The notes beneath the pieces are model-generated. The model was not told the origin of the DNA, ran no database searches, and saw nothing but the letters and a program-made list of their open reading frames with translations. A stretch of DNA of 64,000 nt, taken from the NCBI GenBank assembly GCA_013115145.1, contig JAAPAO010000018.1:62001-126000 (forward strand), given 5' to 3'. Position 1 is the stretch's first letter. Every line of letters starts with the position of its first letter. Position numbers and translations under genes: made by a program. The stretch is from Perkinsus chesapeaki. Taxonomy: Eukaryota; Perkinsozoa; Perkinsida; Perkinsidae. Positions 3,986 through 60,795 of this stretch are shown here, piece after piece.

Positions 3986-6528
3986 TATCCCCAACGATTT
4001 CAAAACGAAGGATCATATATCCCAGTTCGAATATTTTCCCGCGCGCCACAAAACTCACCATATGTATTGCAAGAGTTCCGTATTATTAAGTGCCAATGAT
4101 GACTTGACTTCAGTAAATGCTCTAGTCTCAGCCGTTATATATTGCTCGAGCACCGCAGCTGCAGCCTGACCTTCTTGTAACTACTTACAACACCTTATCC
4201 CTCTACAGTGTCGTCGACGTTGTGTTATTACTGTCTTCATAGCTTGTCCTTGTGCCCTCGATACTGTTGCATTAGCCTGCGCTGCAGCTATAATACGATC
4301 AGTCTTCATACCGACCTTTGCTGCATCACGGAGATTGATATTACCTAGTAACATACTATTATATAGGCTAGAGAGGCAAGTAAGACCATAGGCACAACAA
4401 AGTTAAGAGATTGTAAAAGCGGTATAGGCAAGAAGATTGCAACGTGAACCCACACGGCGGTGCCGGCGGCGAGCATGCTGCCGGGTACCCTAGTAACACG
4501 CTGCTCGTGTCCTGATATGGGAAATACTACATACTAAAAAATTGCCATTCATACTCTGATACCGGCTTAAGGCAGGCCAATGATCGGAATGATGATGACT
4601 GTGATAAGTTAATACCCGAGTGATGATCGGCTAAATCACTGCTACAGTTTTATTCAGATAGTGCTCCCAACGCCAGCAATATGAGTAACTCCTCAGCTAC
4701 ATGTGAAATCCATACCGACTTTTCCCCAAATCTCTTACGAGTAATGTTCTGTTTTGTGTTCGCAGCTGTTAAAACTGAGTCATAGAACTCATCCGGTAGC
4801 TGATCCTCATTAATCTGCAGACCCATGATGGCCGCATGAAAATTTTTCTAAAAAATACAACCAATAACACACTCGCTCACAGGCAACAATAATTCCGACA
4901 TGCGAGCCCTTCCTTAGCTGCACTAGATATCCTGTACCGACCCAGGCACCCCAGTGCGTCTAAACATCTCATTATTTGACCACAGCCCGTTGTTACAGAG
5001 TTAACCCCTAGTTCATCCTAGCATGCTTTCTCCATCAAATGTTATAATTAGGTTTCTGTAAGAATTTCTCTCACTTCAGCCCCACCAATACATACCCGTC
5101 GCTCCGAAGCACATGAGCTACGTGTTCAAATATCATATCAATGTTATAATTATTAGTGATTACAGAAGATACCTTTCTACATTACCAGCGTATCATACCG
5201 ATAGAGCTCAGCTACACTACATCATACAGTACGATTCGTACCAGTCGAGTTATTTACAGATCTAACTATTGCTCCGAATGACATGAATTCGAAGATCGTC
5301 AATCTCGTGTCCTACCCTGAAGTGTTGATCCAAGTAACTCATCATTCCGCGGGCAATCATCTCCTTACTGTTGAAAAATTGGTAGGCACTAAACTGTGTG
5401 GCATACCTACCAACAAAGACTTTCATTCCCGCGCGCCACGAAATAGCAAGCCTACTCAGTAGCGAGATGGTTAGCTACTAATGTGAAGGTCTTCTCGAAA
5501 TCCTGGCCAAGCTCCATATAAAGGTCGACGGTCTCATCGGGTAAAAGCTGATACCTACAATAATCAACGTGTGGTATCATAGGTTGATTCAAGCACTATT
5601 CCTCTCAAGTAGCTGTGCTAGAATAGGTAAGGAGATAGAGGGATATACTCATGATCCGAGGGAAATACGGTATAAATAGGCAGAAATTGGTATGCTATTC
5701 CCAGTAGCAGGTCTTACTGGAAAGCAACTCCTAAAACTAGAGGGAGGCCATCACTGGTTCTGGCATGAAGAACATCATAATCAGATGTAGAGAATTCAAT
5801 GGTCCTCACCGTCTTAGGATAATACACCTGCAAAAATGCCCTCACCAGGGATCGAACCAGGAACCTTTCTCTTACGAAATACGCGAATGGACCGATAGTG
5901 TAAAGGCCCGATTCCACATAAGGCTTCGATGCAACATGCTTGAGGATATTGTCGTACTTAACACCAATCTCTGTTGCTGGAACTCTTGAGAATGACAATG
6001 CCAATAGCTAAGAGAAGAAGACAAAGTGAAGGGAATCATGCACGAAACATTGACCTAAATCACGCTAATCTTTCGTTTCATTTTCACAGTTAAGCGCGAA
6101 TTAAGTTACATAATATTAATCTGGCTGCATAGTACATAACAGCTGATACATATCTTTATATAACGAAAGGAACATGTTAATATATAGAATACGCACAACG
6201 CTCAATACAATCAAGGTTTCGACATGCATTATCCACCATAGTGTTTTTCGTTGAGTAAATGTCAGTCATCCATTTCGTGACGCATATTAAAATATGAAGC
6301 TGCTTAAGGCTGGAGCAGATGACTTATGCCAGCAGACAGGACAGGAGTCCCTTATGCACCAAAGCTATAGATGCGAATACTGTTAGAAATTACAACCTTT
6401 TTAAGAAGGCTATAGATAAGCCATAGATATCATAAGATGAGCAACACACCCATCCTACTAGAGGGACTTACCACTATTGCAACAATCAGTAATGGAGACC
6501 ACAGTATCAACTTTTGAATGTTATTCAT
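3986..6528 (-). CDS. SPFH/Band-7 domain membrane protein 1
   Basis: Multi-exon gene. Exons checked for frame: 6528-6472, 6007-5876, 5827-5718, 5554-5456, 5406-5316. More exons lie at about 4740-4880 (GLQINEDQLPDEFYDSVL), 4200-4335 (DAAKVGMKTDRIIAAAQANA) and 4060-4140 (TELLQYIW). The N-terminus is a hydrophobic anchor (MNNIQKLILWSPLLIVAIV), followed by the Band-7 signature (RTIEFS, then ARTSDGLPLVLGVAFQ) and an Ala/Gln-rich helical tail typical of prohibitin/stomatin/flotillin-like scaffolds. Such proteins oligomerise on membranes. It lies directly beside a second SPFH gene on the same strand, probably an old tandem pair. Two of its introns carry the AATTTCGTGGCGCGC word and one begins with a tRNA T-arm-like stretch. 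The 3' end is uncertain. Confidence 0.8.
4038..4058 (-). repeat. GCGCG-word copy 1, in an SPFH1 intron
   Basis: Minus strand reads GTTTTGTGGCGCGCGGG, beginning four bases after a GTGAG donor that follows the codons for TELLQYIW. It differs from the consensus at three positions. A TTCGA box follows 7 nt after the G-C core. Confidence 0.7.
5407..5455 (-). other. 49-nt SPFH1 intron carrying the word (copy 2 at 5428-5444)
   Basis: GTAGG donor and TAG acceptor. Joining 5456 to 5406 keeps the SPFH1 frame (ATE then YATQFSAYQ). ATTTCGTGGCGCGCGGG starts at nucleotide 12 of the intron, in the sense of transcription. Confidence 0.85.
5828..5875 (-). other. 48-nt SPFH1 intron with tRNA T-arm-like sequence
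   Basis: GTAAGA donor and CAG acceptor, frame-checked. Right after the donor the minus strand reads AGGTTCCTGGTTCGATCCC. This contains a pol III B-box-like GGTTCGATCC and pairs as a T-arm stem with one mismatch. There is no A box or acceptor partner, so it is not a tRNA gene. Confidence 0.6.
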
Positions 6529-9868: not shown

Positions 9869-10384
9869 GAATGCTTTTTAAATAGATAAAAAACTCAACT
9901 TAGACTATGCTAGCCTTGGCGATATTGCCGTGTATCCAGTCACATTGAAAGGCGGAGCGAAGCGATTTTTGTTTACATTTTTGTTATAACACTTTTCATG
10001 CCTATCCCCGTTTACATGGCAGCAGTAGCAGGTATACCGTCAGAGTGGAATCTAAGCCTTTGTCCTTTAGCGGTCGATGAGCTGAACAACCACTGCAGAG
10101 GAAGGTAATATCTTTGGCGGCATGAAAGGGGGAAATAGGGATTAAAGTGAGAGGAACGTTTTGAGTGGAGGTTAATGAAGAGAGTTTTAAGGCGAATGGG
10201 ATATTAAATAGAGATGTTAGAATATATTTCTCTTGCAACTAGGCTAACCTCGAAAGTATCTTGTTTATGTTAACCTTATACGTATCTTTCGGCTGATATG
10301 TTCGCTCTGTAATCTACTCATACCCGGGCCTTAACTGCACTGCCTTAATAAAGAATACCGTACTGCACTGCCGTCCAACACGTT
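9869..10384. other. Intergenic stretch, upstream side of SPFH2
   Basis: No convincing open frame on either strand, and no repeat or RNA gene that I can support. It should contain the SPFH2 promoter. Confidence 0.4.
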
Positions 10385-34785: not shown

Positions 34786-34787
34786 TT

Positions 34788-34879: not shown

Positions 34880-36094
34880 ATGTCTACCCCTTCACGTTAT
34901 ACGGCTCTACCCCCGACCTATGATGGTAATACTAGTTTTTCCGCGTGGGAAAAACGGTTTCGTTTGTGCGTGCGTGCAAATGGTTGGTCAAGCGAAGACG
35001 CGCTTTTGAAGTTGCCCACGTTGCTCTCAGATAGTGCCCTTTCAACATGGGTTGGGTTACCAGATTCCGATATCGCCACACTGGACTCTGCATTGAAGGC
35101 TCTACGGAATGAACTATCACCTGAGACCTTTGTAAGTTTTGATTTATTTCAAACTCGACGTTGGAATCAGAATGCTGAGTCCTTAGATGATTATGGTTTT
35201 GCTCTTGGTACTTTATTGGATCAAAGTGGTCTGAATCTATCAACTCAATCACGTGAGTCTCTGCTTACGTCTAGGTTTATAAGCGGCCTACCGTCTTCTA
35301 TTCAGAAGGACATGCGAAAGTCTCGAGAAGCTACCACTAGCTTTAAAGAAGCTGTGAGGGCTGCTAAGAGACTGTATACTATACAATTAGCTTCGAGAGA
35401 TATGGATCCGTTTCAGGCCTCTCCAATATCACAAGGCTCGCCTGCTTTACCTTTAAATGTTTTCCCCGTCTCTAATCTTCCGTCGTCGACTGCTACTACA
35501 CCCCCTACAAGCAATGGTTCGTCTCCAGCTCCTTTACAAGTCCCACGAAATGATAATGCTCCCTCAGTACAAGCTTTGAATGGTTTGAACGGTGTCAGTA
35601 CCATTAATGCTATTTCTGATCTAGCCAATGCTATGGTTAGCTTTATTAATGGGAAGTCTCGGGGACATTCAGGAAATTCGACTGCGTCTAGCAATCGTAA
35701 TTTTTCCCGTAATGGTAACCAGATTCGTTGTGATTATTGTGGTATTCAAGGCCACAAATGGCGCAATTGTAGAAAATTGCAAGCATCCCTAAGGAATGGT
35801 GGAAATCCTAGAGATCGCTTTGTTAATGGGAATCGAGATAATTCCTTTCAATCTCGCCCACAGTTCAGTGACCGTTCCCAACAACTTGGATATATTAACT
35901 ATGCATCGACTACGCCGACTGTAGGTTCCTCTCCGAGTCCTTTTCAACCTCCTCAATATGGTTCGTCAACGCCCCCGTCTCCTCCAGGCTTACTTCCGGC
36001 CCCTCAGGGAAACGACAACGGGACTACTACTGCGGAGGAAGCGGTAGCCCCCAATGTTATGTACCTCCAGAGAAATGCGAACGAGAGTCATTAG
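34880..36094 (+). CDS. gag: Retrotransposon Gag
   Basis: 404 codons from the ATG at 34880, preceded by only about 95 nt of leader after the LTR. The N-terminal half is helical and capsid-like (SAWEKRFRLCVRANGW). A Pro/Ser/Asn-rich linker follows. One zinc knuckle lies near residue 290 (CDYCGIQGHKWRNC, CX2CX4HX4C), the usual nucleocapsid RNA-binding motif. The tail is Pro-rich. The frame ends at a TAG (36092-36094) that overlaps the -1 frame continuing into pol. A heptamer G GGA AAC, in the gag reading phase, lies 79 nt before the stop. Confidence 0.9.
   Translation: MSTPSRYTALPPTYDGNTSFSAWEKRFRLCVRANGWSSEDALLKLPTLLSDSALSTWVGLPDSDIATLDSALKALRNELSPETFVSFDLFQTRRWNQNAESLDDYGFALGTLLDQSGLNLSTQSRESLLTSRFISGLPSSIQKDMRKSREATTSFKEAVRAAKRLYTIQLASRDMDPFQASPISQGSPALPLNVFPVSNLPSSTATTPPTSNGSSPAPLQVPRNDNAPSVQALNGLNGVSTINAISDLANAMVSFINGKSRGHSGNSTASSNRNFSRNGNQIRCDYCGIQGHKWRNCRKLQASLRNGGNPRDRFVNGNRDNSFQSRPQFSDRSQQLGYINYASTTPTVGSSPSPFQPPQYGSSTPPSPPGLLPAPQGNDNGTTTAEEAVAPNVMYLQRNANESH
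36007..36052 (+). promoter_or_regulatory. Predicted -1 ribosomal frameshift signal (gag-pol)
   Basis: Slippery heptamer GGGAAAC (36007-36013) in the phase G GGA AAC. After a 6-nt spacer, GGG (36020-36022) can pair with CCC (36048-36050). Inside, CTACTGC (36027-36033) pairs with GCGGTAG (36041-36047), with one G-U, around a 7-nt loop. The -1 frame is open from here into pol. Confidence 0.8.
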
Positions 36095-39000: not shown

Positions 39001-39962
39001 ACTGGTCAGCTTATCTGCCTCTTCTCGTATTGTCTTATAATTGCCAGAAGAATGATACCACAGGTTTTCCTCCTTATACTTTGTTTTTTGGTAGAGAAGC
39101 ACCGTCGCCCCTATCCTTACCATCAACTGGTCCAACTACTGCAACTTCTTCGTACAACGAATACTATGATGCTATCAGTGATGGTATACGATCTACTTCG
39201 GCGACAGCTTCACAACATACGCTTCAAGCTGTATCCAGGAGACAGGCTTATCGTAAGGTTAATGATGTTAATATTCCCACTAATGGATATGTTTGGTATT
39301 ATAATCCGGTGAGATCAAGTAAACCATCCCCTAAGTGGTTGGGTCCTTTTCGGTGTACTGGTGTATCAATTCAGTCCCCTAGCTTGGTTACTCTGATCGA
39401 CTCTAATGGTAAATCGTTTGTTGTTCATCGCAACCAAATTAGGCCTGTTACTACTACTCTACGATTACCACCTGTGACTACTAGTTCTACGACTTCGGCA
39501 TCCACCACACCTGCGTCAGATTTGGCTCCTGCATCATACCAAGCTTCACGTACGCGTGTTGATTTTCACACGCCGTGCACACACTTTACTGAAGAGGTAG
39601 ATGATGATGTTGCACCCGGACCACTTCTTGGTCACCAGAATGAAGGTGAAGCTATAATTCCTCCTGCTCCGGTGACTCCAGCTTATGCAGATAATGATGA
39701 TATACCCCCTGCTCCGGTGACCCCAGCTGATGAAGGTGATTTAGCTCATGCTGGCATTGATGCTGCTGACTATCATAATGCGTTGTCGGATAACTCGGAT
39801 GCTATTTCTGCTCATGAAAATGTTTCCCATCATACTAGCACTGATGATGATGATGACAATGATGATAACCAAAGTGTTATTTCGGAGCATTCTGTTGATA
39901 GTGATATACGATTCTCTCGTGTGTCTGGTCGTCGTATTCGAATTCCAGCCCGTTATTGTTAG
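36013..39962 (+). pseudogene. pol: Retrotransposon Pol, with a frame break in reverse transcriptase
   Basis: Reached by -1 frameshift from gag. The aspartic protease motif is VIDTGSPYNLIS (about 36170). Reverse transcriptase includes CILDLKDAFLGISL, LPYGLALSPWCLEM and YMDD at 37318-37329. About 28 codons later, at an A5 run (37414-37418), the frame must shift by -1 to continue in the frame from 37440 to 39962. RNase H follows (ISIYTDASKYCMGY, SFKEMMCIRFAL, NPADALTR), then integrase: an HHCC finger (H...H, SCAVC), the catalytic acids in SMDYLYVDG, VYCDNGSHF and HPASHGGIEKAN, and a GPF-type C-terminal domain. The tail is acidic (DDDDDNDD). Apart from the A-run break no stop interrupts it. Confidence 0.88.
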
Positions 39963-39992
39963 TACTTGTTTTCACTCTTTTCCTCAATCGTT

Positions 39993-40002
39993 GAAGGGGA
40001 AG
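39993..40002 (+). other. Polypurine tract
   Basis: GAAGGGGAAG two bases before the 3' LTR, the expected plus-strand primer site. Confidence 0.8.
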
Positions 40003-40004
40003 TC

Positions 40005-40157
40005 TGTAACACAATTGTAACACAATATTGTTGATTACTGTCCCTAGTATCATTAAGCTAAGCTATGGCTAAGTCCTTATTTATATACTAGCATTATTAT
40101 ACTCAAATATATATTATCCAATATTATAGGATATTGAGTTGTTCCGTTTGGGTAACA
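40005..40157 (+). repeat. 3' LTR
   Basis: Matches the 5' LTR at 152 of 153 positions. Followed by the CGTA duplication. Confidence 0.97.
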
Positions 40158-40161: not shown

Positions 40162-40639
40162 GTAGCTGCGCACGCACGCGCTGACCAGTGCGCTCGCCTC
40201 GATCTCGACATATCATGGCGCTCAGTGAGCACCATTCACAGTAGTATATTATTAGTCTGCTACTGCAATCGAGCATGTCATCAGCTCTTTACCAATCAAG
40301 AATAGCTTTCCAACTTGGAGGGACTTTGAGGAGGGGGCACCCGGGAGGAAGGACTCCGGGCGCGCGCAAAACCACGAATTACTGACCATCGTCACGCGCC
40401 ACGAAACTCCATTAACGCGTCGTACTTCAACCGTTCCCTTATTGGCTCAGTCTTATATCTCTTCTAAGAGGTACTCACGTATTTCAACTATCGAATTTAG
40501 ATACAATGCCCTCTGTAAGGGGGCCTTATGGGGCGAGTCTTCAAACTAGTCTCTCCATCTCAACCGTTCCCTTACCCTGGAGGGATTAGAGTATAGTTTT
40601 AGTTTTTGGTGTCTTTGTTTTCACCGTACTTTAATAACT
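40162..40639. other. Upstream region of the acylated Gln-rich protein gene
   Basis: No gene. It holds a diverged copy of the GCGCG word (40393-40408, minus strand AGTTTCGTGGCGCGTG). Confidence 0.45.
40393..40408 (-). repeat. GCGCG-word copy 3
   Basis: Minus strand AGTTTCGTGGCGCGTG, in the 5' flank of the acylated protein gene and antisense to it. Confidence 0.6.
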
Positions 40640-44502: not shown

Positions 44503-46608
44503 TCATTTCCGAGCCCGCAGCTTATCAATACGATTGGTAAAGGCGCCGTCATCCTGAGTAGGCCAGTCTTCGTAGACGGTGAACTTCAGCTGCTGTAGCT
44601 TGTCGGAGCTCTCGCTACCCTTGCCTATGGTGGGGAAGGTGTGGACGATAATGTAGACATAGGGCGCACTGCTGCGACATAGGATAACCTTTTCGAGAGT
44701 GTAGGGCAAGGAAGCTGCATCTAAGGCTTGATGGAACCATGAGACGGGCTCTAGGAGGTAGGCAGAGTGGCGGCCTACTAGATGGTAACCGACACAATAG
44801 AGACGATTCGGTGCCAAGACTTGACTAAGCTCGAACTGCAGGGCTTCGGACCAACAATGGTCATAGAGCATCACGTAGACATCGCAGTCGGTGGGGAGCT
44901 CAGCGATAGGTGATATCTTTGTAGAGAGCTTATGCTTGGAGAGGAGCGCGGTCTCGATAGGGTCATCTGTTCTAACGAAAAGCTTCCAGTCTGGAAAGAC
45001 CTCTATCAGCCTGCTAGACCAGCATAGGGAAGGTCCCTCCTGGACCAGGGCCTTAGCTGTTGATGAGAGGCCCAGGCTTAGGGCGCAGGCTCGAAGATAT
45101 TTGGCGACTTGAATGTCTACACGCTCTTGACGTTTGGTGTGCTCGATAACCGACAGGTCTATGGGAGAGAGCCCAACGCTCCGGTAGTCAGAGAAGTCGA
45201 GCGTCTCCTCGTTGATGGACTCGTCGAACGAGACAACGATGAAGTACACAGCCGAGCTCGGTGAGTTGTAGTTGAAAGCTGCCAAAGACCTTCCACCGGC
45301 CTCTCTAGCATAGAAGGCAAACCGGAAAAGCTCCTCGTGCTTCCACCTTTCCCCCACGTTGCTGTAGCTGAAGTTCCATAACAGCAACCGAGGCTTCTCA
45401 GACAACTTTAGGATGGTCTTGAAGTCTTCTCGGAGGCCGCTTCTACGTCTACTGCGTAAATTAAGCATCCCCTCTTCACAGCACCATACTATACCGGGCA
45501 CTTCGACAACTTCACCTTCGTCAAGCCAGTGCCGAGGCCTCGGTATCGACTCCCAGAGCATGCCCAAGCCGGCAGTTGAGAAGACCTCCTGCGCCTCATG
45601 TCCCAAAGGCGTGTGGGGTGCTGTGATGTAGGCCGTCTCGATCCCTGCCTTGCTGCAGAGATCAAGAGCTCCGTCGGCCATCCACCGAGGGTACGCTAAT
45701 CCAGTATCTCGCTGCTTCTCGACATTCACATCAATCCGTTCCGTCCACAGAGCTTCACTGCCATCGAGAACCAGTGAAGGCAGCTCGCTTGGCGGTAAAT
45801 CGTCACCGCGCCACGTAATTGCAGACAGGAACATCATCGGGGAGCTCCGAGGGTTGTGGCGATACCGCAGGCAATCGAGCCATCGAAGGTGCAGCCCTGG
45901 TTTACCAGCCTCGACGATTGACTCGAGATAGTCCTTGACATTAAACCAGTGCTCCAAGGGGTAGGTCTCGCCAATGCCCCTCAACGAGAAGGATATGGCC
46001 AAGACGCACGGCGACGCCATGAACCCGCTCTCGAGCAAGAATTTGAGATCGTCCCTCTTCCTCCTGCCAGTCTTGTAGCCATCTCGACCAAAGCTGCCGT
46101 TATAGTCAAGATAAATGCAGCGGAGCAAATGACCATCGGGCAGCCGATGCTCGAGGCCACCGTTAGGGCGAAGGAGGTCGTGGGAGGTCCCGTGCACGGT
46201 GACCAAAGTTTGGTACTTCTGCTTCATGGAGGAGAGCGCCTGGTCGTCGGGATTCGGTATGACAATCGACGAGGGAGGCACACCAGCCCCGTCAATGAGA
46301 GCTTCGGTGGTTAGAAGATGATCCGTGTCAAGGACCAGGCATGTCCCATCAGATGCGGTAGACACCGACACAACGGATGCGATGTAACTGAACAATGGAA
46401 GTGATTCTACGGCGACAGGTGTGGCCACCGACCTGTTGATCCTTTTCTTCAAGTCCTTCTCTGGCTCGTATGGCAGGCCTGTTGCCTTTAAGCGCGCAAG
46501 GTCGGATGGCATCACACTAGGGATGACCTCTGCCTTAGAGTTGTGGACTATCTCGAACACGACATTAAAGAGTATAGTCAATTGTAGTTTACGAAAGAGT
46601 GACAGCAT
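44503..46608 (-). CDS. Intronless 701-residue protein, possible methyltransferase-like N-domain
   Basis: One uninterrupted frame. The N-terminus is mildly hydrophobic. A Rossmann-like pattern is seen at residues 80-110 (CLVLDTDHLLTTEALIDGAG then SSIVIPNPD), with LRCIYLDYNGSFG near residue 165, where class I methyltransferases of the phage and protist hypothetical type have an acidic D-Y/F-x-G. The rest, with many Trp and Tyr (WTERIDVNVEKQRDTGLAYP, WCCEEGMLNLRSRRRSG), is not recognised. Lack of introns stands out because its neighbours have four or five each. That may mean retroposition, transfer or simple intron loss. It faces the transporter gene tail to tail. Confidence 0.6.
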   Translation of the reverse strand: MLSLFRKLQLTILFNVVFEIVHNSKAEVIPSVMPSDLARLKATGLPYEPEKDLKKRINRSVATPVAVESLPLFSYIASVVSVSTASDGTCLVLDTDHLLTTEALIDGAGVPPSSIVIPNPDDQALSSMKQKYQTLVTVHGTSHDLLRPNGGLEHRLPDGHLLRCIYLDYNGSFGRDGYKTGRRKRDDLKFLLESGFMASPCVLAISFSLRGIGETYPLEHWFNVKDYLESIVEAGKPGLHLRWLDCLRYRHNPRSSPMMFLSAITWRGDDLPPSELPSLVLDGSEALWTERIDVNVEKQRDTGLAYPRWMADGALDLCSKAGIETAYITAPHTPLGHEAQEVFSTAGLGMLWESIPRPRHWLDEGEVVEVPGIVWCCEEGMLNLRSRRRSGLREDFKTILKLSEKPRLLLWNFSYSNVGERWKHEELFRFAFYAREAGGRSLAAFNYNSPSSAVYFIVVSFDESINEETLDFSDYRSVGLSPIDLSVIEHTKRQERVDIQVAKYLRACALSLGLSSTAKALVQEGPSLCWSSRLIEVFPDWKLFVRTDDPIETALLSKHKLSTKISPIAELPTDCDVYVMLYDHCWSEALQFELSQVLAPNRLYCVGYHLVGRHSAYLLEPVSWFHQALDAASLPYTLEKVILCRSSAPYVYIIVHTFPTIGKGSESSDKLQQLKFTVYEDWPTQDDGAFTNRIDKLRARK
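45804..45822 (-). repeat. GCGCG-word copy 11 (diverged), in the 701-residue frame
   Basis: Minus strand GCAATTACGTGGCGCGGTG, coding for AITWRG. Two bases short and one changed against the consensus; may be chance. Confidence 0.4.
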
Positions 46609-46649
46609 GCTTTGTGAAACTTGGCTACATTATCTACCACAAGCCGTTC

Positions 46650-46667
46650 TTGCGCGCCTCGTAATTC
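46650..46667 (-). repeat. GCGCG-word copy 12 (diverged), between two genes
   Basis: Minus strand GAATTACGAGGCGCGCAA, between the SLX4 stop and the 701-residue frame. Shares the GCGCGCAAGA ending with copy 9. Confidence 0.4.
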
Positions 46668-46712: not shown

Positions 46713-49265
46713 CTACGCTCTAGCTGCATGCCTTGGTGGCCCTCGTGGCTTCCGAGTTGCGTGCCTTTGTGTTCCAGCTTGGAGGGTGTTGCAAAACTGC
46801 ACACCCTGTTCCTCCAGCAGTTCTCTCAGTAGCGTTTGGTCGCACACTAGAGAAGGGTCCTGAGAGCGAGTTACCATTGACCGAGACCAACATGGTTACC
46901 TGCTCCTTTAGGCGGTTTGCCAGATCAGTGATGTCGATGGTCTCAAAGAGCAGCATGCGTTGCCAGATATCAGCGTCCTTCCTGATGGCATGGACGAGAG
47001 CCTTCTTATTCGTCTTACGCTTCTCATCGGCCTCTCGCTTCTTCTCTGAGCATCCCAGCGTCCGCCCAGCCGCTTCAAACTTCGGTTACCTTCCCGGGAT
47101 TTCTTTGCCGGTGACTTCTTCTGTCTTTTCCTCTTCGGCAGTTCCGGCTCGGCCATGGAGCTCTCCGCCACCGCAGCACTTCCCTTGTCGACATACCTAT
47201 CAACATGCGTGCAGAGTAGCCTCAAGCTCCGAGTGTACTTGGCGATCTCACCGAGGGTCCTTATCATGTTCCCCCTGCTGGTGGTGCCAGCTGTGACCTT
47301 CAAGCCGAAAAACGACATCCATCGTTTCAGCTCCTCGTCCTTCAGCGTGTCCCACGCCATAGAGTCAAGGACGGACCTCCCAGCTCGGGCGTCCGCGGCA
47401 CTCTCCACCGCCGCTCGAGGCTCAGCGGAGCCCTTGGAAGAGCCAGTTTCCGGAAGGGCGCCTTGGGAGCTGCCGCCCACCATCACAGCTCCGGCGAACG
47501 CGTCATCCGACATGAAGGGATCAGACAAGCTGGCCGCCGCCGCCGTTGCCTCATCGTCGTAAGGTAGGGTAGACTCTCCAGGCGGCTCCGGCACACCGAG
47601 GCTGGCCAGTGACAGCCGAGCACGCTTCCAGCTACCGTTGGCCCATCGGCTCACATCAGAGCCTCTCCTCATGGCACCCAAAGCCTTGATGCGCTCGACA
47701 AGTGGAAGGGCGTCCAGCCAAGCGGTGTCATCCTCGCTGGGGGCATCCCCGGCACTGGAGGCCTTCGCTGGGGTGGTAGAGATGCTGCCACCGGAGAGGC
47801 ACTGGATGTCATCGTCATCATCACTGAACGCTAATGGCAGCTGGCTGGGAGGTCCTCTTGAGTGCTCATCTCCCATCATCGACAGTTCGTCCGCACTAAC
47901 TTCAATAATCGGTGAGGATGGCACGTGGTCCAAATCAATGTCCCAATCGAGCTCCTGACTGCCCTCCTGTTGAACAGTTGCCGATGTGGCCACACTACAC
48001 CGGAAGTGTGCAGGGCCCTCATTATCTGACACCATCTCATTCGGCGTCAGAGCCAGAGCCTCGGGGACCGGCTCCTCTTCATCGTCCATGAGCTCCGTCT
48101 GGTCAATGTCCTGTTGAGGCTCCACTGGCTGCTGAGGGCTCTCCTGTGGCTCACAGAAATGAGTGAGCTGCATATTCCGGGCGAGTGACGGAGACGGCTC
48201 TGCTGCCGGCGGCGGCGTGTCTTCTGCCGGCACCTTAGGCCTCGGATGCTTCTTGAAGAGCTCCTCGAGGTATCGTTTAACTGCGTCCAGCCGCACCCCC
48301 TTGGCCTTGTTGCGCTCCACACCGGCGTACAACCGACTTAGAAAATCTACGGCATTATTCGCAAAATAATGAAGGTCATCTCGGCTATCTGAAAGACAGG
48401 GCATGACCGCGCGCCACGAAATCCCGAGGCTTACAGACACGAGGGTCAAGGTACTTCGTCAGAGTGCTTTCAAGCTCGTCAGCGGTCGCGACCAACTCGG
48501 TATTCGACATAACGAAGAGTTCATCGTAATCGTCCAAGAAGCCAGGAACGGTGGGATAGTTCGACAAATACGGCCCGTGCTGGTCCAACACTCTGGGGAA
48601 GGGGCTCGGGAGGCCTTCCTGAAAGAACCGTTTTGGAGGGACCATTGTGTCCGCTTACCGGCCTCGCCGGGATTTCCAGGGATGATGCGCTCGCCTTTGA
48701 ATTCCCCTCAGCTGGCTGAGGGCAAACAATAAAGAAGGAGCGGCAAGCGGGTTGGGAGGTTACTTTGGCATTGGTCCCGAGAGCTGGTCGTTCCGAAGGT
48801 GCCAGTAGGTCATCTACACAGCAGTAGCTGATTCTGCCCATAATTCGTATCACAGCGGCCTCTCTGTCAGCATAGGGATTCGTAAAGGTCATAAGATTGG
48901 CCTCGTCATTGGCCTGGGAGATATCGACCACCTTCACCTTTGATGGCCGGGGGGATGGCGAGTCCGGGCCGCCGGGACTCAGGAGCTCCACGGGTACTTC
49001 GTGTAGGACATTGAGGAGCCTCTCTTTCTCCAACTGGAGCCTATCGAACCCCTAGACCGCGCGCCACGAAATTGGGATCCTACGTGGCTATCTTGCGGTC
49101 TGCGGTAGCAATCCTCCTTTTGATGAGCTCGACCTCCGCGACGGTCCAGGCCGCGCCGTTCTTGGGCTTGAAATACTTGGTAATATCATCCTGCTCCATG
49201 TCCAGCTCATCCAAGCATCTTGGGAGCCCCCTAGTCTTCCGTCTGGTATTCTTACGTGGAGGCAT
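46713..49265 (-). CDS. SLX4: SLX4-like structure-specific nuclease scaffold with PIP box
   Basis: Six exons: 49265-49084, 49040-48659, 48618-48435, 48388-47090, 47045-46900, 46859-46713; 779 residues, frame-checked, introns 40-46 nt. SLX4 organises SLX1 and other nucleases at branched DNA. Family evidence: EELKRWMSFFGLKVTAGTTS followed by RGNMIRTLGEI, like FGVRPLPKRQMVLKLKEI of animal SLX4; and at the C-terminus IWQRMLLFETIDITDLANRL with LLRELLEEQGVQFC, like the SLX1-binding domain. The long middle is disordered and acidic. The N-terminus is basic (MPPRKNTRRKTRG) and carries QDDITKYF, an exact Q-x-x-I-x-x-Y-F PCNA-binding box. No UBZ finger or BTB domain is seen. Introns 1 and 3 each contain the GCGCG word. 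Confidence 0.8.
48389..48434 (-). other. 46-nt SLX4 intron 3 carrying the word (copy 4)
   Basis: GTAAGC donor, CAG acceptor. ATTTCGTGGCGCGCGGTC begins at nucleotide 13. Confidence 0.9.
49041..49083 (-). other. 43-nt SLX4 intron 1 carrying the word (copy 5)
   Basis: GTAGG donor, TAG acceptor. AATTTCGTGGCGCGCGGTC begins at nucleotide 11 and is followed 5 nt later by GGTTCGATAG, a B-box-like end. Confidence 0.9.
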
Positions 49266-49337: not shown

Positions 49338-50867
49338 CTACTCACTAATATGCAGTGGGGGGAGATAACACAATTGGAACGAAAAATTCAGAACTGGTCG
49401 GAGCTGTGGTGAAATGATCTTCTATTGGGGATGCGGCCCGCCGTCGGTGGGCGGTACGTCAAACTCGGCGCCGGCTTCTGAGCCGGACTCTCCAACTCTG
49501 CCCAAGCGTGCATGGTCTAGATGGTCTTTATGGAGAGAGCTGCTGCTGTGACCTGACAGGGATGACACTATGGCATAGTCCATAGATAAATCGATGCGTG
49601 TTTTAAGGAGTCAAATTTGCTATTAAAACATAACATGGCGGCTATCTTGCTGATGGAGTTCTTCATCCGTATTTCCGAACTCCACGATAAGCCCTAGGTG
49701 CCTCACCTTTGAGTAGAGCAGCGACTGGCTCTGGCCTCTCATCAATGGGTGCGCTGACAAAGCTATCACCGAGGCTCCCGCGGCCCGAGGATCCAAAAGA
49801 GCTGGCCATCGGCGGTGGGACAACGAAGGACGATTGCGAGCCGAGAGAGAATACCGAAGATTGCCGACTGATAAGAACGAAGAACCCTCCTAGGATCTGC
49901 ACGGCTGCGCCTGCTGCCTACAACTCGTAGTTCATAGGTGAGTTCGAATGTGGCCGATCAGTTGGGCTCATGTCCAAAGATCTCGCTTGGAAGTCATCGG
50001 CGTCAAGATCGCTACCTGACAAAACAGTCCTTGTGGTGTGGTCATTCTTCGTAGTGCGCAAAGATACGAGCCTTACCAACATCTATTGTAAGAGTCTCCT
50101 CATCTGCCTCGCTCGCTTGGGGTTGGTAGCTTGGCGCACGTAGGGAGGCTGAATACAACAGGCCAGTGCAATGGACGCTCGCAATCCCAGTTCAAGGCAG
50201 CCTCTAACAACAGTAATATACAATGACAGCAAGAGCAACCCCCGAAGGTACGGACGAATGACAAGGTTTCGACCTGCCTGTCAATTATCGACGAGGCAAT
50301 CAAGAAGTGCTTACATCGTGACGGCCTCTCAGTAACCGTCTCGGCGTAATCGCTGGTGGGAGAGGAAGGCTCTTCATGGGGGTAACGACCAAGATGAGGA
50401 TCAAATGCTGATGAGAACGACTACAACACTTGATGGGGGCTGGGCGAGATCACCTTCGTTGACGAACTGAGGCACCTTTTGAACCTCCGAGAGGAGCATG
50501 TCGTTGGAGAGGACATGTGGGGCGAAATGTATCCATTCCTCGTTCACTAAGGACGGTCTCCATGGGCAGGAGCAACGAACCTACGAACGACCCAGGCTCG
50601 AATCCCCCCTGCGGCATCTCTCTACCCAATGGTAGTGGTCGGCTATCAAACCAGTTGTAGGATCACGCCTGGAGTAGTGCACCACCATACCATTATATAT
50701 CTGACATTAGTCCACGTATTTCGCGGCGCGCGAGAATATCGACCACCTTAAATGTTGGTTCGTGTGGATGTACTCTTCTCCGTCGTGGCCGATTACGATG
50801 GACTTCGAACCCTTCGCTAAAGTCGGCTAGGACCAGATACCACTCTCTCGCCAGTTCGCAGATTCCT
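49338..50867. other. Region without a complete recognised gene
   Basis: A minus-strand frame at 49663-49902 (SSFGSSGRGSLGDSFVSAPI) looks coding and disordered but stands alone. A frame at 50693-50926 follows the histidine phosphatase and could be its alternative end; it contains word copy 10 at 50716-50734. Otherwise nothing supported. Confidence 0.35.
50716..50734 (+). repeat. GCGCG-word copy 10
   Basis: Plus strand GTATTTCGCGGCGCGCGAG, one change in the core. The only clear copy on the plus strand, antisense to the phosphatase. Confidence 0.5.
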
Positions 50868-51899: not shown

Positions 51900-54400
51900 C
51901 AAAATGCAAGGATGATGCGGTAAAGGAGAACTAAGAGCTGCAACAAACTGCCTCCGACGATCGCAAGACAGAGTAAAAGGAAACACTGACGCACATGCTA
52001 CAAAGCCTGCTCTCGCAAGGCTGCACGTATGGTGTCAACATTGGACTCGAGGACCATGCCTCCCATCACGACTTCGTCCAATACGTAATTAGCCTAATTA
52101 CCGGGACACTGAGGCAGAGGCAGTAAAGAGGGCTACCTACCTTGTCGAAATGGTAAACCAAATCTAGCTCACATACACTATCGAAGCTGCTGTCTAATAC
52201 CTGAAGTCGATGGCAAGATGGTTAAGTGCAAAATGTCCATTGGCCATCTGGAGAGTAGGATAGGAATGATAACTACTGAAGCTGGCGCATGGGTTTCTTC
52301 CTGTAGGCTAGGAAGAAGGTAAACAAAATAGCAAGGCTCACAAATTTTCCGAGAAGTTCCGGAAAAGGAAGGAAAAAGCTGATTAGAAGCGATTGCCGGG
52401 TGGCTGCTGCTGCCTGCCTCTCCAAGACTCAGACCAGCAGTATCGAAACATCGAATACAGCCACATGCCATATTTTAATACTATTGGGCTGATTGTTGGT
52501 GCATTTGTTTGGACACCCTACCTGTACGAGAACCTGTATAAGATCTAGTACAGCCAGATCACTCTCGGTTTCATCGACAATAAAGGCGAAGTAAAGAGTA
52601 GCAAAGTGCCTGAGCGATACAGTTCACGAAGTCAGTGCCACAGAAGAGACACTTGTAGATAATCCTAACATTCCTTCTAGATCCTCTTCGATCGTTCACA
52701 TCTATAAGCTCAGGGAGAGCCTCGGAGACGATGCAACAGCAACTATCATCTGGTCTAAAGAAGAGGCAATTTTATGGCGCGTGACGGAGCTGACCGCCGA
52801 CCTTGCTCTGAGAATGGCATGGACTCTGTGGATGAGCGGTTGTCGAGCAGCCAAAGGAATCGCTGTGTAAAAGCGAGCCAGTCGCGTCTTGCCACCGTTG
52901 TTGAAGACTAGCGCTGCTAGAATCATTATACAACAAAAACAGCAACAGCCCAGTGGGAGGCAGTTGAACTAGGATGCCGTATAGGTTGCCTAAGAATATT
53001 AACCCCCTGGAGAGCTTCGGACGGTCTGCACTGAATCCACCCTCCCCTGTGGGATGCCAGGAGCACAATACGAGTAGATGTGAAATGTCCATCTCATTAT
53101 AGTGTACAAAATAGTTACAATAGATCCTCTTCGTCAAGTTGATCAGCAACGGTATGGCTTCCTTCAATGGACGCTAATGCCAACTCTACCTGGAAGAGGA
53201 CAAACCTGGAGTAAAGTTCGTGATGGAACACAGTGAACACTTTTAGCGTGGAGAAAGGATGCTGGAAATCATCAGTCTAGGCACAGGGGAGTTCGGTCTA
53301 GGCACATTTACCCTGAATCCTGGACCGTACGTTCTCGCATCGTCAGATGTAATATAGAAGGAGACTTGGTGGATGCAAGATGCGATAGGAGAGCATCAAA
53401 CGCGAACACAAAGGATGTTTCCTGCCACTAGGGACATATCTCTATTATATTCCAGCACTAGAGATCTCCCAAGGAACACCTTTATACCCAGATGATATCC
53501 TGCATATGCCACCGACCTGATCTCGAGCCCACTTGGCCTCCTCCTTGCTGTCCGCCTCCAGCAATGGCATCTGCCTCAACGTGGAGTCCACTCCGAGCTC
53601 ACGTAGCCGACCACCCATCGCGGACCCGCCGCTTGATTCCCCCGTCAGGAGTATCACCGCTGAGGAAGTCCATACGGTCGCCAAATAGAGCTGGTCTTAC
53701 CATACGCAAAACGGCCCAGTCTGATCTCACTGTTGACTTTGGTGTCCAATAGCACCCTAAGTTCTCGCGCTGCAGCAAGGGGAAGGTCTACACTGTCCGT
53801 AATGGTGTCCGCGGTAAACAGTGTCTCGAGTAGACGAATACAGGGCAGGTGATCGGGGCCATGGTGAAGGAAGGATGCCAGGAGGCAGTTGATAGTGGAG
53901 TCACGTAGGGGCTGAAAATGGAGGCAATACATTCCGAAGGGCCGGCAGTAGAGAGAGACGCTCCAAATCGTTCCCCGGAATTCACAAGTCCAGAACCGAG
54001 TCGTGGTTGCAGAACTCCGTGTTGCCTTCATCAATGAGTCATTTGCGCTGACAATTTCTACAAGTGATAGCTAGCACCTTCGATGGCCTGTGGACATCAG
54101 TTATCGGAGCCTCAAGAGCCGTGAATTTCGGTGCGCGTGACGCATTCGATTCCTACATCATCTATGCCATCATCTCCTTGTTTACTAATCCATTCAGTCA
54201 TCAACTCCGCTGCTGCCCTCATAACCCTCTCATCTTCACTAGGTGGCATTAACATACACTTCTCTGCCAGCAAAGGGGCAAAGACCCGACTGATAGCGGA
54301 TGGCCTGAAGGGGACAAGGACGGCAGCCATCCAACCAGCAAGTGATGTGCCCAGCACCTATCTGGCTCCTCCCGATTGCCCTCCATAGCACTAAGCACAT
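51900..54400 (-). CDS. Unrecognised coding-like fragments, alpha-helical
   Basis: Minus-strand pieces look like exons of a helical-repeat protein: RVMRAAAELMTEWISKQGDD (about 54150-54260), RDSTINCLLASFLHHGPDHL (about 53840-53900), DLPLAAARELRVLLDTKVNS (about 53720-53790) and VELALASIEGSHTVADQLDE (about 53120-53190). Between them lie short possible introns. Composition suggests HEAT/ARM-like helices, but I cannot name the protein or join the exons. 51990-52690 holds nothing I can support. Confidence 0.35.
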
Positions 54401-54727
54401 CCAACACCCTTAAAGTTACCCTTAATGGGAGTGCAGAGGTATTCAACAATGAGACCAGAGTATCTGAGAGAGCGGTAATAACATACTGCCGAGGTGGCTC
54501 GTTTGACCCCGCGGCCGCACATATTCCTGAACGAAGCCGTTGCCGCTGAAGAGTAACTTAGACTATGTATCAAGGTGGTTGATGGAGCAATAGAAAACCA
54601 GTACTTAGAGCTGTCGTACGATATCCCCTCTCACTAACAAATTCTGGCGCGCCACGAAATTCCAGGGGTGGTGCCTCCCTAGGCCCATTTTGCACAGACT
54701 GCCCTCGGATTCTGCTGATGCTGCTGC
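54401..54727. other. 3' flank of the 54728-55483 gene, with word copy 6
   Basis: Contains the GCGCG word at 54646-54661 (minus AATTTCGTGGCGCGCC), 67 nt after the stop at 54728-54730. It could sit in a longer intron starting at the GTGCAA near 54698, but no downstream exon is certain. Confidence 0.45.
54646..54661 (-). repeat. GCGCG-word copy 6
   Basis: Contains the exact 14-mer GCGCGCCACGAAAT shared with copies 2, 4 and 5. Confidence 0.85.
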
Positions 54728-55483: not shown

Positions 55484-55488
55484 TGTTA

Positions 55489-58400
55489 GGAAGTAGTACT
55501 TGCAATAGCAGCTGCGGCTGCAGGACCCGAGGGGACCTCTGCTGCGCGCTGAGGAGGAGGCGGTGACCGGAGCGGAGGCAAGTCTCTGAAGATGCTTCCC
55601 TGCAACCCACCCTCGTTCCTGGCTGGCCGGGAAGGTCTCTCGCTGCTAACAACCGCAATATCATCGTCATCGTCAATCTCCATTAGGTCCACTGATTCTG
55701 CCTTTTTCCGTGCCTCCATCGCTGCTCGGTGGTCATCCAGAGCTTTAAAAATTTGAGGGCATCTGTCCTCGAAGGATAGACTCTCATCGAAAACGTGAAC
55801 ATAGATCGACGTGTGCTTCGGCCGGTGGCAGATGTCCCCCATGACCTCATCATCCCCAATAGGCCTTGGCTCCACCGCTTGGTCGGTATTAAGAATGACC
55901 CTAAAGCACTGGGGCGGCTGGTCTATCACACTTTGCCCAAGTAAAAGCATCTTTAAGTCGTAGCCGGTGCACTCGCTACTAACTTCCTTCAAATCATCCA
56001 GCCGGCCTCCCCGCGACCTCGACGTACCATCGCCCCGCCGCACTTGCATAGCGATATCATCATAAACCATGTGGGCCTTAGCATTGCCCGAAGACGGGGG
56101 CAGCAAGCTCAGCAGTTCGCTGGTCTCCGTGGTAGAGGTACAGCAGCCCTTGTCACAGACGGGGGGGTCGAGGACGAGCTCGTTCTTGTCGCCATCTCGC
56201 CGTACCTGATCTTCCAGATGCTCCGGGGTTACTCCTGAAAAGCCACTGGCAGCCCCGAGCGGTTTTATAGATCCTCCGGCACTGTGATGATGAAGTGTGT
56301 ACACATACTGTATCTTGCATTTTGCGTTGTGTGTGTCGTATCCTTCTTCAGCGCTGCAATGACTACTTTATATTAATGTTTTTACTTGTCACAAAAACCT
56401 CTCAAACGGACCCTGTTGAGTTGTATAACCCGCAGGCACAGTGCTTAGCACAAGCTCATTTATAATCGCCATAAAGACATTATCAATTTTGTGCCACGAG
56501 CGATACAATATTTTTCGAGCTGGCATCAAATTTCCGCAAGGATATGCAGTAGATTTCCGAAACACATGACTCCTGCAAAGATTCGTTCGAGCTCACCTTG
56601 GCAAGACTCCCATCATTCGACACATACTTCTTCTCCAAATACTTTCCCACCTCCTCATCCAACACCACCACCCACTTATTTTCACAATGCCCTCTACCTC
56701 GAGGATCGAACCTCAGCAGGCCATGCTGGCAATACATCAAACTGTAATATATCTCCCTTACGGAATCTATTCGGGCCTTCTTTGGCCCGTCTTCCTTTTC
56801 CTTCTTCGCCTCGTCACCGAATTGCGACAGATACTCCCGCCAAGACGTAAACCATCTTTTAGGTAGCAAATAGGACCAGCTGCTCCCCTCCAGATCGGAC
56901 GGCAGGTCCTCCAGCGCCACCTTCCCCCCGCTCTCCAGCAACCCTTTACATTTCTCCTTTTCCTCCAAAGCGACCAGCTCCGCCTCCAGCCTCTCCTTCG
57001 TGCATTCTGGACACAGAGGCTCTGATGGCTGCACCCACCGGTCGATCTGCAACTTCGGCAGCGCGCCGGGCAATTCAACAGCGAGCTGCTCCGAGGCGTC
57101 CAGGAGCTTCTCTAAGACCTTGATTTCCCGAGACACATACTGCGATCCTTCCGCGTGGTTGGAGGTCTTCCCATGCGGACATACAAGCCCCTCGCTCAGG
57201 TCCGAGACCTCCGGAACCTCCTCCTTCGCGCCCCTGACCAAGTGATTGACCACGAACCTCCAAAAGCGCACGTTATCCCAGACGAGGTTCCCTCTCGGAG
57301 CAACTTTAAGTGATATCTTCAACCTGCTGGTAGCCGCCTTCGTCCCTCCTATCGGCACACTCGGCAACTTGGTCTTATTAATGACGGCCAGCGACGGCTT
57401 CCTCTGTCCATTCCCCTTGCCACTGCTGCTCTTCGATGGTGTTGCCAACACTACCACACATGTCTCCTCCAATTCACGCAAGCATTGCACTTTCTGATGA
57501 AGGTCCGAGCAGCACTCAAAGCAGAGGGCTTCGGATGCTGGAGTCACCGCAGCCTCGAACTCAGGCTGTAGTAGGGCAGCTGGTATCACCTTCACTGCGC
57601 CACGAAATGTCGCCAGAGGATCCACTTTGCCGTGCGAACATCCCACACCCGAACAGAGCGAGTTGCCGTTGGTTGCCTTCACAGGCGATTCGCCAACGGC
57701 CACACAGCCGGACTGCTTCTCCGACCGCGCGCCACCAAATTGTTCTTTTAATTTTTCTGCCACATCATCGCCGGCGCACCAGCTTGATACGAACTGGGAT
57801 GGAATAAAGTAAAGCGAGTCAAGAGAGGCGCCGGCCTCGCTGGACTGGCCGAGCGCAGTCAAGGTTGACATCACGGAGGTAAGTTGACTCTTCCGATTAG
57901 CCACTGCCGTCTCAACGGCTTTCGATGCCTGCTCCATGAGTTGGATTTCAGAGGTGACCTGGAGAGGTTGAAGCATGCATCTCATATTTTAAAAGATATG
58001 CTACCTTCTGGTTGATCTCATCGACCTCTTCCCTCAGCCACTTCGGTATCTCTCTTCCCTCTTGTTTAATCGCATCATCATCCATCCCCACTACATCCTC
58101 CCGTGCGTACACCAACATATATGCCGTCTTCGAAGCCCCTCTGGGAGCCTCCGGAGATGCCTCATCGATCATCCTCTCCAAACTAGCTGGCGATGACCCT
58201 CCCTTCACCGACTGCCCACTTGCCGTCGTGCAAGCGTCCTCATCTTCCCCCGGACTTTTCGTTCCCGATTTTTTCCTACTCCCTTTGCTGAGTCTTCGTC
58301 TTTTCTTAGGCGCCGATTCCTTCACCGCCCATTCGTGCGGCTCCACCCTCTCATCGTTGAACGCCATCCACCCTCCTGCAGCCTCCCCAGTCAGCAGCGT

Positions 58401-60795
58401 CGCCGTGTAATGGCCAGAGTTTGCCGAGGCGCCGTGGTGCTCCAAGACCCCCGTGCACCTGTATCTTGCGCGCCCCGAAATTGCCTCGCCCTCGTCCGTA
58501 ATGAAGGGTGTTAAGTCCAAATCCTCCAGCGGGAAGTCGACCTCCGCCGCCAACCGTCTTCGTTCGCCATTCTCAAACATGTACCGCTGGATGATAATAC
58601 AAAGATGCTCCGGGCACTTTTCTATTTTCTGCACTCTCACAGCCTCCCCTCGCCCACTGCAATTCAAGCACTGATAGTCGCTGAAGTTTTCCTGCTCGAA
58701 CGTCCTCGCCAGGGACTCCTCAAGTCGCAGAGGTTCCGCAGAGTCCAAACAAATCCGGAGTTCGGCGAGGCGCTCCGATCGATGCACGCTGTTGCCACAC
58801 GTGTTGCACTGCGTACTGTAGCGAATGCTACCGCAAAAGATATCTTGGATGAAGTTGGGGGAGCCCGAGGGGATCTGCAATACTCATCTCTGGAGACGTA
58901 CGACTGCCCAAATTACCGCACTCTCAATCGTACTGAACAGCATGGTTGCCAGCTCGCTGGTATCCTCCTGCACTCCCGAGTCAAGCTGCAAAGATTCTCT
59001 CCAACGTCGCCAAGGTCTTCTTCAATCGCTCCTTACCTTACACGCCTTTATGAACGCCTCCACAGATCCCTTGCACGTAGCTGACACTCCCTCCTCCATT
59101 TCAGCAAATAGTACCTAAGACGGAGGCTCTAAAGAGAAGTCCACAGCCACCACGGAACTGTCAAGGGAATATCGAATGAAGGAAAAGGGAGATAACGAAG
59201 AATAAAGAAATTCAATTGTTAGACGATTACCGTAGGAAGGGAACAAGCCTATTTGAAGCCCCAGTGTGTCGGGCACCTTCCTGAGGTCTCGTAAATACTG
59301 TGCACGATGTGATCATGTGGAATTTTGCGACGATTGGTTTATCCATGAAAACATCGACGACTATCGGACGAACCAATGCAAGTGTCGCTTTCCAGTGGAA
59401 GGCTGGAACAGCTCAAGACAGCGCGATGGTTGAACTGAAGCCGATCGGATGAGCGAGATCTTTGAGAAGCTCCCATGAATGATGATATATTATCCCCCCA
59501 CAGCAAACATTTAATAGTATTACTCCACTACCTACTGTAGTCTACCCCTTCCTCCCCCCCTTTGTTGCTTCACATACCGTCTCGTATACTATCCGTTTAC
59601 TAGACTAGCCCCATGTTCCCCGAACAAGTTAATTCCACCGATTAAAGGCTGCTGCTGCTGCCCTTCTCGAACAATACCAATCCCGAGCACCAGAGTCATG
59701 TTGGCTCTGTTATCTGCCTCACCTCACAGTAGCCCTATTCCTATATACACCTCATCACAGCCCATTCTAAACCGCCCCTGCCTCAGCATCCCCCCTTCTA
59801 CTACCTGCATCGTCCTTAACCACGTTCCCTTCCCCTCCTCTATCGGTGGTATACTGTAAATGCCATACCGAAATGGTTTGATGGCATAGAGAGCTTGAAG
59901 CAGGGCATTCGCGTAGCAAGTGGCGCCGAGGTTACGCAGCCCCGCGTATTGTCCTGAAGGCATTCATGTCAGTTACACATCGAGTTCGTTTTTTGTCACA
60001 ATTTTTACGAACTTCCCCTCAGAACCGACCCGGGCACCATCAACAGTACCTTCCCTGAGCTGCTCAATATTCCTGTCCAATCCCAACTCGACCTTCAGGA
60101 ATCGGGGCGACCACAAGCCCTCCTTTCGATTTGTTGCCGACTGAAAATGAACAATATTAGAGGAATTATCAACAACATTTCAACCGCTGGCCGGTTCGGT
60201 GAAGCTGGTGGAGAGCTTCACCATTTGAAACTCGTTAATGCATTTCGTCTACTATCATCCAATGCTCATCGCGGTTGAGCTCTACCACCAACAATTTCAA
60301 CGCTCTTAATACTGCAAACTAGCACAGAGCTCATACCGCTCCCTCACCAAGCACCTCAGAATTTATGGTACACCCATTCCACAGCCCCATCTTTAAATGA
60401 ATAAGCACAGGCGCAGTGAACCGCCCCCCTTACTACCATAAAATCGAGAGGATCGTCCTTATGCCGTTGACTTGACTTCGGCGTCGTCCACTTCAACTTC
60501 GATAGGCTAAAACATGCCCACCTCACAGGCTCAGAGGAAACCCCGAAGCTGCCCGTTTCACCTCGGAAGGTTATAATACGGCAGGAGCGTGTCTGGCTTG
60601 TCTGCAACTGGTGCCTCCTCCTCCTCCGGGAAGCAGTTGAATTTCACACCAGCTGCATTCGAAGATGCCATCTCGATAATCGAAGCTCCCGAAGCTGAAT
60701 CTTTTGACACTATCTTTGATAGAGATATTGTGCGTAAAAATCCGACGATTCCTCCGCCGCTTTCCAAGCTCATAGTAATAGTGACTTCTACACAA
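55489..60795 (-). CDS. USP48-like ubiquitin carboxyl-terminal hydrolase A
   Basis: Multi-exon deubiquitinase. N-terminal exons near 60560-60795 and 60000-60144 ([20 protein letters not shown]). The Cys box [20 protein letters not shown] is at about 59885-59950, with the catalytic Cys in ATCY. The zinc ribbon has [10 protein letters not shown] and CLNCSGRG (58880-58640). The His box is [15 protein letters not shown] and the acidic residue lies in [14 protein letters not shown] (about 58330-58430). After the catalytic domain come Cys/His modules ([37 protein letters not shown]) like those in USP48. A C-terminal block ([23 protein letters not shown]) is shared with the next USP gene. Active-site residues are all present. 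Three copies of the GCGCG word lie in its coding exons and none in the paralogue. Exon joins are approximate. Confidence 0.82.
57597..57608 (-). repeat. GCGCG-word copy 7, in the USP-A frame
   Basis: Minus strand ACATTTCGTGGCGCAGTG, coding for ATFRGAV. Here the core is TGGCGCAGTG, which matches a tRNA A box. Confidence 0.55.
57723..57742 (-). repeat. GCGCG-word copy 8, in the USP-A frame
   Basis: Minus strand CAATTTGGTGGCGCGCGGTC, 19 of 20 positions identical with SLX4 intron 1, coding for QFGGARS. Confidence 0.8.
58468..58483 (-). repeat. GCGCG-word copy 9, in the USP-A frame
   Basis: Minus strand CAATTTCGGGGCGCGC, one change. It codes for AISGRAR, inside a short stretch that the paralogous USP-B lacks. 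Confidence 0.75.

Follow-up and report, generated by a model that had tools for sequence, protein, structure and literature searches.

What is a short word doing at about a dozen places in one 64-kb stretch of the genome of Perkinsus chesapeaki, a member of the Perkinsozoa, which are relatives of dinoflagellates and apicomplexans? An earlier note on this stretch had offered three readings: an introner-like element, a selected protein-binding site and a tRNA-derived element. Setting genome-wide counts beside the anatomy of the copies, their flanks and their placement in genes, we confirm that the word, about 20 bp long and reading AATTTCGTGGCGCGCnnnAAtt, is real and dispersed across the genome at about 1,000-1,100 places, on both strands and in introns as well as coding exons. 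We further suggest, from the pattern of its sequence and placement, that it is probably a selected, strand-independent DNA recognition site, used mainly within genes, for a putative factor. Among the titles and abstracts retrieved for Perkinsus on introners, introns and splice sites, genomes and promoters or motifs, none describes the word.

Copies of the word in the window

The stretch analysed, hereafter the window, is C90:62001-126000. An open frame on C91, another contig of this genome, is 99% identical to FOL47_002800 of P. chesapeaki. All twelve places listed in the earlier note carry the word, 0-5 nt off the coordinates given there, and the four exact 14-mers claimed for the window were found at C90:67431, 110409, 111059 and 116647. 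A search with the 17-mer at three or fewer mismatches returned 11 sites, where 0.11 would be expected and 100 dinucleotide shuffles gave no more than 2; ten of these are on the earlier list, the eleventh lies at 60939, and ten are on the minus strand. The place near 46650 was recovered with a longer pattern and that near 57597 with a position matrix. Above 14 bits this matrix reports 17 copies, 13 of them on the minus strand, including weaker copies at 52768, 54124 and 57058 and a borderline one at 6271 that only the matrix finds. The window is richer in the word than the genome at large, with 11 sites per 64 kb (AATTTCGTGGCGCGCNNNAA, three or fewer mismatches) against about 2.1 from the genome mean. 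The copies, with two predicted introns that hold them, are as follows.

4038..4055, minus strand: word copy, 27.6 bits; intergenic according to the gene finder
5428..5445, minus strand: word copy with the exact 14-mer, 29.3 bits; a 49-nt GT-AG intron may surround it; intergenic according to the gene finder
6271..6288, plus strand: borderline word copy from the position matrix, 14.1 bits, may be chance
40391..40408, minus strand: word copy, GTGA-ending variant, 24.3 bits; 17-mer search and matrix
45803..45820, minus strand: word copy, GTGA-ending variant, 23.1 bits; within a 708-aa open frame
46649..46666, minus strand: word copy, 22.0 bits; the ATG of open frame 44503-46608 lies 41-58 bp downstream
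48389..48434, minus strand: predicted GT-AG intron of 46 nt that contains the copy at 48406-48423, ends worked out by hand
48406..48423, minus strand: word copy with the exact 14-mer, 28.5 bits; in predicted intron 48389..48434
49041..49083, minus strand: predicted GT-AG intron of 43 nt that contains the copy at 49056-49073, ends worked out by hand
49056..49073, minus strand: word copy with the exact 17-mer, 28.1 bits; in predicted intron 49041..49083
50717..50734, plus strand: word copy, 27.4 bits; 17-mer search and matrix
52768..52785, plus strand: weaker word copy from the matrix, GTGA-ending variant, 20.1 bits
54124..54141, plus strand: weaker word copy, 18.0 bits; within a minus-strand gene, in an intron predicted to be 46 nt long
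54644..54661, minus strand: word copy with the exact 14-mer, 31.4 bits; 17-mer search and matrix
57058..57075, minus strand: weak word copy, 15.5 bits; in open frame 56486-57988
57592..57609, minus strand: word copy with TGGCGCAGTG, 18.6 bits; in open frame 56486-57988
57724..57741, minus strand: word copy, 22.2 bits; in open frame 56486-57988
58465..58482, minus strand: exonic word copy, 23.6 bits; in a USP-type ubiquitin hydrolase, with P0001 aligning across it apart from one single-residue gap
60938..60955, minus strand: word copy, 21.7 bits; 31-48 nt past the stop codon that ends open frame 60986-63400

Abundance and strand balance across the genome

The earlier note had proposed a genome-wide scan for an excess over expectation, and across the whole assembly (35.4 Mb in 884 contigs) that excess is large. 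The 14-mer ATTTCGTGGCGCGC has 193 exact matches, against 0 in the reversed control. The pattern AATTTCGTGGCGCGCNNNAA has 57 exact matches, 239 at up to one mismatch (control 0) and 1,149 at up to three (control 33), a density of about one copy per 31 kb. The preference for the minus strand that the earlier note described holds within the window but not across the genome, where the 14-mer splits into 89 forward and 104 reverse matches and the looser pattern into 541 and 608; the bias is hence local. Chance in GC-rich DNA is ruled out as the source of the word by the shuffles, the reversed controls and the column-shuffled matrices.

Anatomy and uneven conservation

To describe the unit itself we used a sample of 275,148 bases, made up of the window and 40 regions that surround exact copies; these regions were drawn, in contig order, from the first 100 of the 193 places. 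In the 51 exact copies of this sample, conservation spans roughly positions 0 to 21 and falls to background level on both sides, giving a unit of about 20 bp with sharp edges whose consensus is AATTTCGTGGCGCGC followed by three free bases and then an A-rich part. Above 14 bits, the matrix recovers 104 copies from the sample, compared with 3 from the reversed sequence and, on average, 1.0 with 60 column-shuffled matrices. In the 3' part a one-base shift is tolerated, the ending being displaced to GTGA or RGTGA in 21 of the 104 copies.

The copies do not differ from one another evenly. Across 52 non-exact sites with 1-3 mismatches to the 15-mer, collected under uniform ascertainment, the differences at positions 0 to 14 number 14, 4, 3, 1, 8, 15, 11, 12, 2, 2, 0, 2, 7, 15 and 24 (chi2 84.8, 14 df); the reversed word yields 4 sites in all at the same mismatch level. 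GGCG is almost fixed, with 0-2 differences at each base, beside 12-24 at positions 0, 5, 7, 13 and 14. Part of the excess at positions 13-14 arises because the shifted variant ending adds differences there, and positions 0-12 taken on their own remain uneven (chi2 53.3, 12 df, p 4e-7). One of the CpGs in the word is kept and two are not. A nearly fixed GGCG beside tolerant positions argues for a recognition site rather than uniform, neutral decay, and such position-specific constraint, a fixed core with tolerant positions, is as found in sequence-specific DNA-binding sites.

The same set of copies bears on the suggestion that the word descends from a tRNA, or acts as the A box of an internal Pol III promoter. 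Six of the 104 copies do read TGGCGCAG, a T-arm follows one copy (L023), separate T-arm modules are dispersed in the genome, and a looser box, GTTCGA, is found after 8 of 103 copies and before 2 of 103. On the other side, 62 of the 104 copies read TGGCGCGC; the B box GGTTCRA occurs within 90 nt downstream of 5 of 103 copies and upstream of 3 of 103, with about 2 expected, so that a fixed spacing of A and B boxes is not seen; and ARAGORN reports no tRNA in the window and two in the 40 loci, neither at a word copy. A search of 10 of the 40 loci against Rfam gave two matches with E of 1 or less, both under the gathering scores of their families. The tRNA-derived reading of the earlier note is thus not supported, and we consider a tRNA or Pol III origin the least probable of the explanations weighed here.

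Flanks, mobility and clustering

In the introner reading, the word would be the conserved core of a mobile element or micro-transposon that makes or invades introns. Introners exist in Amoebophrya and other protists and, like the word, place a repeated sequence in many introns in either orientation (PMC7789003 and PMC9860276). The published criterion for introners is likeness near both splice sites (PMC9860276), and those of Amoebophrya bear inverted and direct repeats at their ends (PMC7789003). Unlike such elements, the word shows similarity that stops short of the splice sites, being confined to about 20 bp in the 51 exact copies, and its flanks are near random. When the 30 nt on each side were compared for 5,356 copy pairs per side against two random controls, 23 left-flank pairs scored at least 10 (9 and 18 in the controls), as did 23 right-flank pairs (19 and 17). 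A small excess on the right persists at higher scores, with 13 pairs at 12 or above (6 and 8) and 7 at 14 or above (3 and 2), so a few copy pairs do have part of the right-hand flank in common. The best of them, L017/L042, is 83% alike over 53 bp that include the word and sequence past a putative 3' splice site, and may be a pair of related genes. Exact copies have almost unrelated surroundings, so that if a unit was copied, it can only have been the 20-bp word itself.

Target-site duplications or terminal inverted repeats mark a subset of introner families. Flanking duplications, for which the earlier note had proposed to look, are not apparent: no target-site duplication stands out among 1,760 combinations of boundary and length in 75 copies scoring at least 22, and no direct repeats are seen in these copies.

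The copies cluster locally, with 13 neighbouring exact pairs closer than 5 kb among the 100 places listed, where about 2.7 are expected. Individual loci hinted at a fixed spacing of about 100 bp between neighbours; we dropped this idea on the genome-wide gap counts, which give 10 direct pairs at gaps of 40-100 and 9 at 101-161, three of these 19 coming from one tandem repeat in C343, and we claim clustering only.

Placement in introns and relative to genes

Placement was scored with a self-trained gene finder, run with the words masked; the reason for training one was that GT-AG pairs in open frames, counted by length, showed only a weak excess at 40-49 nt. It is conservative, calling the copies of L018, L009 and L030 intergenic although the introns of L018 and L009 are supported by homology. 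The intron enrichment that the earlier note had put forward for testing is present: 25 of 104 copies are intronic, against 51 of 507 random positions (Fisher p 0.0003). Coding sequence is not depleted (31 of 104 against 132 of 507; Fisher p 0.47), and 48 of the 104 copies, against 324 of the 507 random positions, are called intergenic. A score combining splice signals with open frames, computed for 102 of the 104 copies (two fell to the locus-end and duplicate filters), exceeds 6 for a fraction of 0.48 of copies and 0.19 of random positions, a moderate separation. Copy-bearing introns have a median length of 45 nt (n=25), against 43 nt for the others (n=509, introns of at least 28 nt). Introns are very short throughout the 40 loci and the window: gene-finder lengths are most frequent at 40-49 nt, and a lesser group sits at 30-34, the minimum of the model.

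Individual genes illustrate this placement. The open frame of a GSK3-like kinase (L018) can be aligned to GSK3 alpha with one 16-residue insertion, to which a 48-nt GT...AG stretch carrying the antisense word corresponds. Excising a 45-nt GT-AG stretch with an antisense word from L035 yields an EF-hand protein that matches solved proteins straight across the junction, and excising a 46-nt stretch, again with an antisense word, from L009 yields a kinase match that spans the junction with a 7-residue gap there. A PDI-like gene in L030 has an apparent sense copy in a 46-nt intron, its name and splice having been judged by eye, and in L016 and L030 adjacent candidate introns of one gene seem to carry the word. 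Within 0-500 nt downstream of predicted gene starts lie 30 of 101 copies, about 18 being expected (Poisson p 0.005); as this excess is only mild, the word is not a simple promoter element.

The enrichment in introns could also reflect recognition in the transcript, by which the word would be an RNA-level splicing or stability element, and some sense copies do end near a plausible branch point when inspected by eye. Against this, intronic copies divide into 12 sense and 13 antisense to their gene and coding copies into 20 and 11, and the sense and antisense words differ as RNA; we judge an RNA element highly improbable.

Copies in coding exons

Copies in exons allow the word to be compared across species at the level of the encoded peptide. 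For five exonic copies set against homologues, four align without a gap and one with a single-residue gap, so that the word is not only strand-independent (541:608) but placed without insertion at these sites. In Listerin (L036), an exact copy encodes FARHEII where P. olseni has FARPEII, gap-free. The protein of L026, which has no Pfam match, contains three exact copies encoding YFQRATKC, FARHEIV and EFRGAQ. The first, in an upstream exon, lies in YFQRATKCM, identical in P. olseni when compared by eye; the second lies in AFARHEIVD, identical in two P. olseni proteins, with FARHEIV also identical in P0010 and no gaps; and at the third P. olseni has EFRGAR and P0010 has EFSGAR, gap-free. The copy in the USP gene of the window encodes AISGRAR, where the homologue P0001 has GISGRRT and the single-residue gap. 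In a Dna2 exon (L020, identified by Pfam), the stretch around a copy that is weaker and diverged adds no residues relative to the solved DNA2, in an alignment that is poor. The earlier note had named identical copies at orthologous places in distant relatives, with no polymorphism, as a refuting outcome; correspondence at orthologous places is found at the peptide level, and for exonic copies only.

We considered whether a protein motif (NFVAR, FRGAR or FARHEI) might be the source of the word. This is ruled out, as copies in open frames, not all of them proven exons, use all three frames and both strands, and many copies are intronic.

The exons also weigh on the introner reading. Normal intron lengths, together with the exons tested, contradict insertion of a 20-bp unit: the five exonic copies show no insertion of the word, and the conservation does not reach the splice sites. 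The intron enrichment, the adjacent introns of L016 and L030 and the few partly shared right-hand flanks would suit a mobile element, as would a RING-type exon (L040:2634) whose spacing at the copy is, by eye, 8 residues longer than in the neighbouring RING and which may hold an 8-residue insertion at the word. With copies in both orientations, similarity that ends at the word, and neither target-site duplications nor lengthened introns, the introner-like element of the earlier note is not borne out, and we consider a micro-transposon very unlikely.

A probable selected recognition site and its main rivals

Of the options raised at the outset, a selected protein-binding site is the best supported, by the uneven conservation, the strand symmetry, the clustering and coding residues that are largely kept in P. 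olseni. Mostly within genes, a sequence-specific protein would bind double-stranded DNA at the word, whichever way the word is oriented; it could be a transcription factor or an architectural or insulator-type protein. New copies would arise by single-base change, and selection would keep the word even where codons are constrained. Several observations count against such a binding site. The lack of depletion in coding sequence is unusual for a regulatory site, and the one-base shift of the 3' part in 21 of 104 copies is unusual for a rigid one; the right-flank excess, led by L017/L042, the possible L040 insertion and an excess near predicted gene starts that is only mild weigh on the same side.

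Known systems offer partial parallels. The RE1/NRSE sites of REST and the sites of CTCF are long sites of multi-finger proteins, about 20 bp in length and present in hundreds to thousands of copies. The word resembles them in its length, its high information and its presence on both strands in introns, exons and intergenic sequence, and differs in being enriched in introns. Bacterial DNA uptake sequences likewise consist of an exact dispersed word, on both strands, in coding and noncoding DNA and with unrelated flanks, as is the case here, but the word is locally clustered and much sparser; we know of no DNA uptake system in P. chesapeaki.

The main rival to binding selection is a biased DNA process, such as methylation-dependent repair or biased conversion of near-matches, that makes and keeps the copies. 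HIP1 (Highly Iterated Palindrome), an 8-bp cyanobacterial palindrome linked to methyltransferases, has been proposed to arise via methylation-dependent mismatch repair and, like the word, is short, dispersed far above chance and of debated function (PMC4390886). The presence of copies on either strand of exonic, intronic and intergenic DNA, the tested exons without insertion and the undepleted coding sequence would all be compatible with such a process. The word departs from HIP1, with its short palindromic form and its link to methyltransferase sites, in being eukaryotic, about 20 bp long and asymmetric, not its own reverse complement; one copy per 31 kb is moreover sparse for biased repair, and the copies cluster locally. 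We regard a HIP1-like origin as unlikely. Slightly less likely still is a self-maintaining eukaryotic word, a counterpart of HIP1 and uptake sequences, in which biased repair, recombination or modification would overwrite similar sequence without insertion and so yield the roughly 1,000 near-identical 20-mers.

If the word is instead a bound site, as we favour, it would be a genome-wide cis-acting word in Perkinsozoa, and its use in exons would mean that, in many genes, the same bases serve both protein evolution and DNA signalling. The word itself is a ready-made bait for finding the putative factor.

Other dispersed words and elements

The loci hold further repeated sequences. A Gypsy-type retroelement at 34630-40157 of the window has near-identical 156-bp ends (98.7%) and reverse transcriptase and integrase frames, with a protease match below the cut-off. 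A second dispersed word, GCGGAGCGAAGCGATT, often then followed by ...TTTACCATTTT, has 338 genome sites at up to one mismatch against 3 in the control (for example L009:2303-2334, L015:585-618 and window 9952-9981). A third, GTTGAGGAAATGCAAGAT, has 286 at up to two mismatches against 1 in the control (for example L012:3418-3455 and L016:867-993); in L016, two inverted copies of it span about 127 bp and resemble the ends of a small MITE. Further short shared words include AAATCGATCAATCGGGCGAGCGCTTTTTACA, the palindromic ATCGATCACGTGATCGATTTGG and TGAAAACCCGAAACCCGAAAACCC, at L012:1016, L014:2104 and L021:1157; at L016:3796 and L035:1452; and at L028:1206 and window 11300.

Dispersed modules of the 3' end of a tRNA comprise a variable loop, a T arm or B box, an acceptor-like strand and an oligo-T, most having no 5' half that is obvious by eye; they occur at L043:1856 and 2187, L014:1665, window 5848 and other sites. 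T-arm matches number 36 in 275 kb, at least one being a real tRNA, compared with the 2 tRNAs of ARAGORN, and strict matches genome-wide number 63, against 0 in the control.
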